This document shows positions 11,375-14,462 of a stretch of 64,000 nt of DNA, piece by piece. The position numbers were made by a program, and so were the translations under genes. This stretch comes from Salinispira pacifica (GTDB taxonomy: Bacteria; Spirochaetota; Spirochaetia; DSM-27196; Salinispiraceae). Position 1 is the stretch's first letter. Every line of letters begins with the position of its first letter. Location of the stretch: the NCBI RefSeq assembly GCF_000507245.1, contig NC_023035.1, positions 186,001-250,000 of the forward strand, in the 5' to 3' direction. The notes under the pieces were generated by a model that was not told the origin of the DNA, ran no database searches, and saw nothing but the letters and a program-made list of their open reading frames with translations.

Positions 11375-12703
11375 ATGAAAGCGTTCATGGAAGAACTGTA
11401 TGAAGAAGCGGTAAAGCGGGCGGATCCCTTTCAGATGATTCGGGATCGGGTGCGCTATGAGAATGAATCAGTGTACATTCTCGACGGCGACGGAGAAATA
11501 CACATTCCCCTTTCGGGGATCAACCGGATACTGTTCACCGGTGCGGGAAAAGCCAGCGCTCCCATGGCACGAGCCATGGAGATTACGTTTGAAGAGTGTG
11601 AAACAGCCATGGAAGGACTGGTTGCCGTGAAGTACGGTCACACTGCAGAGACGGAGTTTATCAGACTGAAAGAGGCGGGGCACCCCATTCCCGACGAACA
11701 CAGCGTACAGGCCGCCCGGGAGATCAGTTCCCTCCTGGAGACCGCCGATGAAAAAACACTGGTCTTTAACCTGATTTCCGGCGGCGGGTCGTCTCTGCTG
11801 GCCAGGCCCTATCCGGGAATTGCATATGAACAGTTTCAGGAAATGGTACGGGTACTTCTGGAATGCGGGGCGGATATCCATGAGCTGAACACCCTGCGAA
11901 AACATGCCAGCGGTATGAAAGGCGGGCGGATGGCTGAAATTGCACATCCCGCCGTGTTTGTGAATATTCTTCTTTCGGATGTAGTGGGAGACGATCCCCA
12001 GGTGATCGCCTCGGGGCCCGGCGTGCCGGATTCCAGCAGTTTTGCCGATGTGTGGAAGGTGATACGTAAATATCAGATTGAAAAAGAACTGCCGGACCGG
12101 ATTCTTGAACATTTTCGCCGGGGACTGGAAGGGGATGTGCCCGAAACTCCCAAGCCCGGATCCGAACTGTTCAGAAAGGTGCGAACGGTAATTCTGGGTA
12201 ATAACCGGGCATCGCTGAATGCAGCCGCCGAATGTGCGGCCCGCAGAGGCATGCAAACGCTTATTCTCACATCCCGGCTCACCGGCGAAGCCCGGGAAAT
12301 GGCGAAGCTGTTTGCGGCCATGGCAATGGATCCTCCGGACCGGAACCTTGTGATTTTCGCCGGGGGTGAGACAACCGTTACCATCCGGGGGCGGGGACGT
12401 GGAGGAAGGAACCAGGAGTTGGCTCTGTCTTATCTCAATGAAATGATCCGTTGGGGAGAGGACGCTCTTGGCAGCAGTCCCTGGTTTCTCGCCGCCGGAT
12501 CAGACGGAAACGACGGGCCCACCGATGCCGCCGGGGCGATTATCGGTCCAGAAGAAATACGAAGGCTTTCAGGCGGACCGGATATCCAGGAGTATCTGAG
12601 TCATAACAACTCCTATCAGTATCTTGCGGAGCAGGAAATTGTATACAAAACAGGCCCGACCAATACCAATGTCTGCGATTTCTGTTTTCTCTACATCCCC
12701 TGA
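11375..12703 (+). CDS. Glycerate 2-kinase, MOFRL/DUF4147 family
   Basis: Cytoplasmic kinase of the GckA/TtuD type, phosphorylating D-glycerate (to 2-phosphoglycerate in most members). Landmarks are ILFTGAGKASAPMARAME near the N-terminus, LVFNLISGGGSSLLARP, LNTLRKHASGMKGGRMAE, VNILLSDVVGDDP and the C-terminal MOFRL part with GRGGRNQELALSYL and LAAGSDGNDGPTDAAGAI. The ATG at 11375 has GGGAGAG before it; an upstream ATG at 11330 is less likely. The tail TGPTNTNVCDFCFLYIP is a variant of the normal ending TGPT.TNV.D. It is monocistronic as far as can be seen. Confidence 0.9.
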   Translation: MKAFMEELYEEAVKRADPFQMIRDRVRYENESVYILDGDGEIHIPLSGINRILFTGAGKASAPMARAMEITFEECETAMEGLVAVKYGHTAETEFIRLKEAGHPIPDEHSVQAAREISSLLETADEKTLVFNLISGGGSSLLARPYPGIAYEQFQEMVRVLLECGADIHELNTLRKHASGMKGGRMAEIAHPAVFVNILLSDVVGDDPQVIASGPGVPDSSSFADVWKVIRKYQIEKELPDRILEHFRRGLEGDVPETPKPGSELFRKVRTVILGNNRASLNAAAECAARRGMQTLILTSRLTGEAREMAKLFAAMAMDPPDRNLVIFAGGETTVTIRGRGRGGRNQELALSYLNEMIRWGEDALGSSPWFLAAGSDGNDGPTDAAGAIIGPEEIRRLSGGPDIQEYLSHNNSYQYLAEQEIVYKTGPTNTNVCDFCFLYIP

Positions 12704-12852: not shown

Positions 12853-12878
12853 GAACCTTCCGGCCGTCAGAAGCGTCT
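12853..12878 (+). promoter_or_regulatory. ECF-type promoter of the sigma-factor operon
   Basis: GAACC (12853-12857) and CGTCT (12874-12878) are exactly 16 bases apart, matching the common GAAC-N16-CGTC pattern of ECF sigma promoters. The predicted start is near 12885, leaving a short leader with GGAGGA before the first gene. As the operon encodes an ECF sigma factor, autoregulation is the natural reading. Confidence 0.7.
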
Positions 12879-12931
12879 ATAGAGTCAGATGAAATCAATT
12901 CTGATCAGATTGAATAACGACGGAGGAATTC

Positions 12932-13477
12932 ATGAAGACAGCACAACGGAACATAACCGGGAAAGACGGAATGCAGATCGGCGGTAATGCTGTGAAAAGA
13001 ATAGCCATTATTCTGCTGATACTCAGTTCGGCTGCAGCGGTCTGGGCTGAAGATAATTCGCCGGAAGCTGAGCTGCTTGGCAGCCTGGAGCGTCTTGGCA
13101 TAACGGAGGATGAACTTTCTACCATAACTGAAATTCAGCAGGAGTATGCTGACAGCCGGAACATACCCATGGCTGAAATAGAAATACTCCGGGCCAGAGT
13201 ATCCCGGGAGCTGCTGGCAGATGAACCGGATCTCAGAGAGGTGGAAAATCTTATCCGGGAAAGTCTGGACTATGAGCTTGAGATCCGCATGGCCGAGATA
13301 GTCAGAGAACTTGGGATGCAGCAGGTTCTGGGACCACGGCGCTGGGCTCTGATAAAGCAGCTGAACCGGCAACTTCGGCAATCGGGAATGAATTTCCCTG
13401 CCCTCAGCAGGCGAATCAGGGAAGCGCGTCCGGACCTGCGCAGGGCGATCCGCATAATGGAACTGTACGCTGAATAA
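12932..13477 (+). CDS. Spy/CpxP/CnrX-like periplasmic protein
   Basis: Exported helical protein. After an unusually long polar N-region, the hydrophobic core AIILLILSSAAAVWAED gives a signal peptide cut near residue 40. The mature part is helical and hairpin-like: LERLGITEDELSTITEIQQEY, then a long charged helix, then MQQVLGPRRWALIKQLNRQLRQ, which recalls the LTPEQR helix of the Spy/CnrX family. Members act as periplasmic chaperones or as sensors for ECF sigma factors. No histidine metal site of CnrX type is visible. GGAGGA precedes the ATG. The stop overlaps the sigma-factor start by one base (TAATG), so the two are cotranslated. Confidence 0.65.
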   Translation: MKTAQRNITGKDGMQIGGNAVKRIAIILLILSSAAAVWAEDNSPEAELLGSLERLGITEDELSTITEIQQEYADSRNIPMAEIEILRARVSRELLADEPDLREVENLIRESLDYELEIRMAEIVRELGMQQVLGPRRWALIKQLNRQLRQSGMNFPALSRRIREARPDLRRAIRIMELYAE

Positions 13478-14064
13478 TGGATGTCCGGAAACAGGATCAG
13501 GGAGGAGGGAATGTCCCGGCAGATACGGCAGCAGTCGATGATCCCGGGGCCCTCCTTGCTCCCCATATCCCCGCACTGCGCAGATATTTGTATGTGCTTC
13601 ATAACGGAAATCTCCACGATGCTGAAGACAGTCTCCAGGAGGGGCTGCTTCGGGCCATAGAGCGTTTGGAAAGTTTCCGCGGACCCGCCGGATTTAAATC
13701 CTGGCTCTTTTCCGTGTGCCGGAACGCGGCTCTGGACGGATTCCGTAAAAACCGCCGCCGCCGGGAATACAGCGGTGACTGGGAAGGGCTGCTGGAGGGC
13801 CGGGCCAGCACTCTTCCGGGTCCTGAAGAGCTGGTTCTGTCTCATGCCCAAAGGGAGACCGTGATCGATGCCCTGATGAAGCTTTCTCCCCGATTTCGCA
13901 TGCCCCTGATGCTCAAAGAAATTGAAGGAATGTCCATCCGGGAAATTTCTGAAATTCTGGGTCTGCCCGAGGGGACGGTGAAATCCCGTCTTTCAACGGG
14001 AAGAAAAAAACTTGCGGCACAGTTCACACGGCTGTACGCCGGGAAAGGAGGATTTGAACTATGA
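13477..14064 (+). CDS. ECF-family RNA polymerase sigma factor
   Basis: Sigma70 group 4 protein of 195 residues. Region 2 covers about 30-100 (DAEDSLQEGLLRAIERLESFRGPAGFKSWLFSVCRNAALDGFRKNRRR). Region 4 covers about 125-185 (VIDALMKLSPRFRMPLMLKEIEGMSIREISEILGLPEGTVKSRLSTGRKKL). It would direct RNA polymerase to a small regulon. Its start overlaps the Spy/CnrX-like gene and its stop overlaps the next gene (ATGA), so all three are translationally coupled. An ECF-type promoter lies ahead of the operon. By context the flanking products are its likely regulators. Confidence 0.92.
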   Translation: MDVRKQDQGGGNVPADTAAVDDPGALLAPHIPALRRYLYVLHNGNLHDAEDSLQEGLLRAIERLESFRGPAGFKSWLFSVCRNAALDGFRKNRRRREYSGDWEGLLEGRASTLPGPEELVLSHAQRETVIDALMKLSPRFRMPLMLKEIEGMSIREISEILGLPEGTVKSRLSTGRKKLAAQFTRLYAGKGGFEL

Positions 14065-14462
14065 AGATACTCCGGATGAAAAAAAAGAGCGGAACCCCCT
14101 CCCAGGAAGATGTGCTGAATATTCTTCGGAACCATGGCAGGGTTGAACTGGAAAGACGCATGGAAAGCGAACAAGCCCTGGACGGTGAAAGCCCCTTCCG
14201 GCGTCACCGGTCCATAGGCCGGTCAGCCGTGCAGAGAGCAGGCCGGGCGGCAATGCTGCTGTTCGCCCTGGGGGTTCTGGGGCTTGGATCCGCCGGTGTT
14301 ATGAGGACTATGAGTGTGAACCAGATGGTTTCCTCGGAGATGGAAGTGTTTGTGACCGAAATTGTCGCACCCGGGGAACGCGACGGGTATTTTCACGGCT
14401 TTGAACAGGAGATGAGTACTCTCATTGACATGGTGATACTTCCGGCCAATGAAGCTCCCTGA
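14061..14462 (+). CDS. Small one-TM protein, candidate anti-sigma factor
   Basis: 133 residues with a basic cytoplasmic N-terminus (about 1-60), one transmembrane segment at about 63-84 (AAMLLFALGVLGLGSAGVM) and a short periplasmic tail of about 50 residues. No zinc-binding HxxxCxxC motif of ZAS anti-sigma factors is present. By position (translationally coupled to the ECF sigma gene) and topology it resembles CnrY-like membrane anti-sigma factors; this is inference from context, not from recognisable homology. Confidence 0.55.
   Translation: MKILRMKKKSGTPSQEDVLNILRNHGRVELERRMESEQALDGESPFRRHRSIGRSAVQRAGRAAMLLFALGVLGLGSAGVMRTMSVNQMVSSEMEVFVTEIVAPGERDGYFHGFEQEMSTLIDMVILPANEAP

Follow-up and report, generated by a model that had tools for sequence, protein, structure and literature searches.

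What does a three-gene operon at positions 12853–14462 of the window (the whole 64-kb stretch of DNA analysed here) respond to, a metal or a disturbance of the cell envelope? The first-pass annotation had read it as a periplasmic helical protein, an ECF sigma factor and a membrane anti-sigma factor behind an autoregulatory promoter, a set resembling CnrYXH of metal resistance but possibly forming a spirochaete envelope-stress circuit of new type. To our knowledge, hardly anything has been established about how spirochaetes sense envelope stress. Our analysis supports the assignment of these parts, and the envelope reading is favoured over the metal reading.

Layout of the operon and its promoter

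The region contains a promoter and three overlapping genes, all on the forward strand, and reading of the sequence and its open reading frames agrees with the earlier description. The predicted ECF-type autoregulatory promoter (12853–12881), assigned from the sequence and from homologous operons, has a -35 element GAACC (12853–12857), a 16-nt spacer and a -10 element CGTCTATA (12874–12881). It is followed by a leader of about 50 nt containing the Shine-Dalgarno sequence GGAGG (12922–12926) of the first gene, which starts at the ATG at 12932 and encodes a Spy/CpxP-like periplasmic helical protein of 181 aa (12932–13477). The TAA of this gene overlaps the ATG of the gene for an ECF sigma factor of 195 aa (13477–14064) in the sequence TAATG at 13475–13479. 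The stop codon of the sigma gene in turn overlaps, in ATGA at 14061–14064, the start of the third gene (14061–14462), which encodes a zinc-less putative anti-sigma factor of 133 aa with one transmembrane (TM) segment. Both the promoter GAACC-N16-CGTCT and the overlapping three-gene set are therefore confirmed in the sequence, and by the overlaps behind a conserved ECF promoter the three genes are predicted to form one autoregulated unit.

The operon is isolated and without transport genes, since it is flanked on the 5' side by a gene ending at 12703, whose product, a MOFRL/DUF4147 protein, is by family of the glycerate 2-kinase type, and on the 3' side by an enolase gene on the opposite strand. 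Searches with tblastn found no homologue of CnrC, CnrB, CnrA or CnrT in any of 48 loci or anywhere in the 64-kb window, in keeping with the earlier remark that metal and efflux genes are absent. A sigma-70 promoter scan gave no site on the operon strand, and an Rfam search returned no match.

A genome scan for the promoter motif had been proposed earlier as a way to define the regulon. The bare decamer GAACC-N15-17-CGTCT is not enriched in the window genome, where it is found 17 times, compared with 20 times for its reversed control, and comparison of homologous operons was needed because the decamer alone carries no such signal. This comparison reveals clear conservation. When the 350 bp in front of the first gene of each operon were scanned against shuffles for the core GAAC-N15-17-CGTC, exact matches were present in 11 of 43 operons (0.45 expected) and matches with at most one mismatch in 38 of 43 (12.6 expected). 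The consensus (G)GAACC-N16-CG[A/T]CTAAT, usually located 50–80 bp upstream of the start of the first gene, fits 34 of the 43 operons with at most one mismatch, the window operon included, while some loci of other classes have GGTCTAA at the -10 position. The predicted promoter before the window operon exceeds what chance would give. Its motif is also a generic ECF consensus, which weighs against the reading proposed below.

Across 39 genomes carrying the three-gene module, all 14 sites of the strict motif are the promoter of the module itself. With one mismatch allowed, the window genome contains 34 sites, of which only the one before the operon is in promoter position; nearly all the others lie inside genes. 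On its contig (G000:C1), a 27-bp motif neighbour is located in four near-identical coding copies near 2175324, 2220589, 2223987 and 2232289 (L223 and L225–L227), which are probably a repeated or mobile gene.

Nature of the three proteins

The first protein carries a signal peptide, probably cleaved after residue 39 (AVWA/ED), and its assignment draws on a family profile, on PF13801 and on comparison with E. coli Spy. PF13801 (Metal_resist) is matched at E ≤ 0.1 by 23 of the 42 family members, with a best value of 1.4e-9, and no other family is matched by more than four of them; the window protein itself scores 13.1 bits, below the cut-off of 29.2. The 42-member profile aligns with E. coli Spy in register over 90 residues with a score of 30.0 (P = 3e-4), against a maximum of 16.9 among 60 shuffles. 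With CnrX (taken from L230) the hhalign score is 13.2 (P 0.23) and shuffles reach 16.8. The Spy part of the earlier label 'Spy/CnrX-like' thus stands, whereas the CnrX part is at shuffle level. A search of PDB sequences with the sensor profiles gave no significant match, Spy being fourth with E = 0.13, and a single-sequence AlphaFold model is all-helical with low confidence (pLDDT 55), too weak for a fold search or for a claim about the four-helix cradle of the Spy/CpxP superfamily. The window protein contains no histidine and no cysteine, and no histidine or cysteine column is conserved across the 42 relatives, so that the lack of histidine ligands noted in the first-pass annotation extends to the family. 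We predict that the first protein is Spy-like, with nothing in it that points to metal, and presume that it serves as sensor, as chaperone output, or as both.

The second protein is assigned from Pfam, NCBIfam and a tree. It matches Sigma70_r2 (PF04542, 3.6e-15), Sigma70_r4_2 (PF08281, 5.7e-16) and TIGR02937 (8.4e-30) and comprises sigma2 and sigma4 domains without a large sigma3, as predicted for a standard ECF sigma factor. CnrH is 35% identical to it over 123 aa. This identity, the family name Metal_resist and the presence of the same three kinds of protein as in CnrYXH would fit a CnrX-like metal sensor operon whose efflux genes have been lost or are controlled elsewhere. However, the missing histidine and cysteine residues, the shuffle-level score of CnrX, the lack of CnrCBAT homologues and the envelope nature of the candidate targets described below make such an operon very improbable.

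The third protein has about 62 cytoplasmic residues, a TM segment at residues 63–81 (14247–14303) and a short periplasmic tail, as judged from hydropathy, and it matches no anti-sigma family in Pfam. Its putative function is based on its position and on profile homology to HxxxCxxC anti-sigma factors in sister operons. The HxxxCxxC motif marks class I zinc anti-sigma factors (ASDI) (PMC7406223); it occurs in 13 of the 42 sisters and is absent from the window protein. A profile built only from the zinc members scores above 10 bits with 21 of the 29 zinc-less sisters and with none of 134 TM controls, a score that comes partly from the TM segment, as 12% of segment-preserving shuffles also exceed 10 bits.

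The window protein reaches 9.6 bits with this zinc-only profile, and this low score, together with the missing Pfam match, would be expected if the third protein were an unrelated membrane protein and the sigma factor were regulated by transcription only. Against this, zinc anti-sigma factors occupy the same position in the 13 sister loci, and the window protein scores 16.0 bits with a profile of all other members, above all of 300 TM-preserving shuffles and all TM controls; its identity to the G382 protein is 28%. We consider an unrelated protein hardly credible here; the third protein is probably a membrane-bound anti-sigma factor by which the sigma factor is kept inactive. The one-TM proteins form a homologous series that runs from zinc HxxxCxxC forms to short zinc-less forms like that of the window. 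Within a single genus the zinc motif is kept in G154 and G207 and lost in G227, and it therefore seems that the anti-sigma domain was repeatedly reduced towards the size of CnrY.

Distribution of the module and its candidate targets

A search with a six-member profile found relatives of the Spy-like protein in 47 of 395 Spirochaetia genomes (31 of 133 genera). In 43 of the 48 Spirochaetia loci fetched, the gene immediately downstream of the Spy-like gene, in the same orientation, encodes an ECF sigma factor, and a gene for a one-TM protein follows the sigma gene in 42 of these 43, usually at an ATGA overlap; the sole locus without it is interrupted by a contig end. These counts derive from ORFs called mechanically and from a simple scan of hydropathy. 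A draw from the whole phylum gave matches in 65 of 296 genomes, Spirochaetia members included, and an ECF sigma gene lies beside the Spy-like gene in all 13 loci inspected from other classes of Spirochaetota. Relatives of the Spy-like protein reach distant families and mostly adjoin ECF genes. The predicted module is widespread in the spirochaete phylum, and in this respect the earlier claim was too narrow. The conserved neighbour genes of module loci are lineage-specific only, and none of them is a metal-transport gene. At L087 (G130:C4, 4505–5992), the sigma frame extends to 495 aa across the anti-sigma gene, which is in another frame; this long frame reflects either a frameshift from sequencing or the loss of a stop codon.

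In 91% of bootstrap trees a single branch unites the 40 module sigma factors and leaves CnrH outside; the support of this branch itself is weak (87/49). The nearest relative of the window sigma factor is in family f41 (support 99/94) and not in its own family, of which the three other genomes are without the module. These two facts suggest that the window module was gained laterally, or else that many losses occurred. Relatives of the sigma protein in the closest genomes are only about 35% identical, a search for related loci with the window sigma protein gave matches only to actinobacterial ECFs, and the Spy-like protein of G382 is 36% identical to that of the window.

A relaxed motif search returned a few further sites in promoter position, mostly before genes for secreted proteins. 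As a class this search was no better than its reversed control, and single matches are therefore treated as leads only. One of them, a lipoprotein family of about 410–420 aa, withstood closer study, and it provides the best evidence that the motif may act in trans. In G129 the motif precedes a gene for a 421-aa lipoprotein that heads the module operon (L113, G129:C31, 1695–3013). The family occurs in only six of the 395 genomes, all six of which carry the module (hypergeometric p = 1.2e-6, a value that takes no account of shared ancestry, one family contributing four of these genomes). Upstream DNA is readable for five copies, each of which has the motif 26–50 bp upstream of the gene, and three of these five genes are on a contig other than that of the module. 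The loci of the family are L113, L234, L235, L233 and L236; in the last of these (G217:C302, 1440–2901) the lipoprotein gene contains an in-frame TAG stop or a frame break. The family is absent from the genome of the window.

In family f42, a gene matching bacterial alpha-2-macroglobulin in Pfam lies 3' of the anti-sigma gene, by 17 bp in L117 and by 41 bp in L118, and alpha-2-macroglobulin is probably also driven by the module sigma factor in some lineages. This gene, which encodes a lipoprotein, runs from 5650 in L117 and from 5758 in L118, and is found a little further downstream in L109 and L115.

A module-type promoter is also present 23–64 bp before five genes, namely L182, L183 and L184 in G136 and L194 and L195 in G242, with products that are DUF1800-like, cyclic-nucleotide-binding-like, cellulase-like and secreted, DUF1549/1553-like, and a lipoprotein. 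DUF1800 and DUF1549/1553 proteins, with motif matches in G136 and G242, were considered as a general regulon and rejected; DUF1800 is not a general target because it is present in only two of the 395 genomes. ECF-type motifs also precede two Spy-like genes of G058 that have no sigma gene beside them, which suggests that Spy-like genes may be targets in trans. The same genome contains, at L265 (G058:C150), an ECF sigma gene with a zinc anti-sigma gene and an adjacent gene whose product looks RseB/MucB-like by eye.

Proposed working and comparison with known systems

We consider it probable that the three genes make up a single autoregulated ECF module for envelope stress, with a Spy-like protein among its products. 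The envelope role proposed in the first-pass annotation is supported, and the candidate targets found are envelope proteins. As judged from homology and position, the one-TM anti-sigma factor would keep the sigma factor inactive until a disturbance of the periplasm, with stress as the presumed input, inactivates it. Most likely, the Spy-like protein would bind or protect the short periplasmic tail of the anti-sigma factor and leave it for unfolded clients, in the way that CnrX acts on CnrY or CpxP on CpxA. The freed sigma factor would then transcribe from GAACC-N16-CG[A/T]CTAAT promoters, a recognition suggested by the motif. Its own operon would be the main target, and the additional Spy-like protein produced would reset the loop. 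In some lineages the sigma factor may also drive envelope genes, namely the lipoprotein family and probably bacterial alpha-2-macroglobulin; in the window genome no target other than the operon itself was found.

Only tentatively do we go further and propose that, across the phylum, a Spy-type chaperone may be both sensor and main product and gate its own ECF sigma factor through the anti-sigma factor, and that, inside a single family of orthologues, the anti-sigma domain would have dwindled from the zinc class I form to a minimal one resembling CnrY. Alternatively, the Spy-like protein could be an output chaperone only, the anti-sigma factor sensing stress itself through regulated proteolysis of its tail. 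In Phocaeicola vulgatus spy is an output of the sigma factor CirY (PMC13114119), the lone Spy-like genes of G058 could be targets in trans, and the periplasmic tail of the anti-sigma factor is conserved across the family, all of which would fit this alternative. However, the Spy-like gene nearly always heads the sigma operon and hardly ever occurs without it, as would fit a dedicated partner, and the tail is short with no protease gene linked to it; we regard the output-only role as rather unlikely.

An autoregulated envelope-stress module of this kind, with a defined operon, a phylum-conserved motif and concrete candidate targets, would make the pathway directly testable in a cultivable spirochaete. 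The series from zinc to minimal anti-sigma factors in one conserved operon bears on the origin of CnrY-like (class II) anti-sigma factors. No paper describing the spirochaete module was found in the open-licence literature.

CnrYXH/NccYXH of Cupriavidus metallidurans likewise combines a one-TM anti-sigma factor, a periplasmic helical protein and an ECF sigma factor in overlapping genes, and the putative one-TM anti-sigma factor of the window shares the short cytoplasmic part. However, the gene order in the spirochaetes is X-H-Y and not Y-X-H, the sigma factors belong to another group, and histidine ligands, a CnrX match and RND efflux genes are lacking. The kinship to CnrX implied by the earlier label is not supported, and on sequence grounds the metal analogy appears to be architectural only. 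With class I zinc anti-sigma factors (PMC7406223) the module is linked through its zinc-bearing sisters and the zinc-less ones that match their profile, whereas the window protein, without zinc ligands and with a short cytoplasmic part, is nearer in shape to class II CnrY. E. coli Spy and CpxP (Metal_resist, LTxxQ superfamily), of which Spy gave the in-register match, are under the control of CpxAR/BaeSR and not part of an ECF operon as in spirochaetes. An Azospirillum operon of RpoE8, a hypothetical protein and a 'periplasmic heavy metal sensor' also joins an ECF sigma factor, a small protein and a Metal_resist-type protein, in another gene order; its function was not studied in that paper (PMC12826043).

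The closest studied analogue is CirY-CirZ-Spy of P. vulgatus, where an ECF sigma factor, an anti-sigma factor and a Spy-like protein are likewise encoded in one operon. When its anti-sigma factor is removed, cirY and spy rise, and so do two genes downstream that may have roles in peptidoglycan (PMC13114119). There the sigma factor drives its own operon and envelope outputs, a behaviour to which the spirochaete module is likened from its genes and motif only. The gene order (sigma/anti-sigma/spy), the phylum and the output genes differ, and the likeness is one of architecture. Because this operon has already been described, 'new type' was too strong, and the general scheme is supported and is not a new kind; what is new here is a variant that spans the spirochaete phylum and has a defined promoter and candidate targets.
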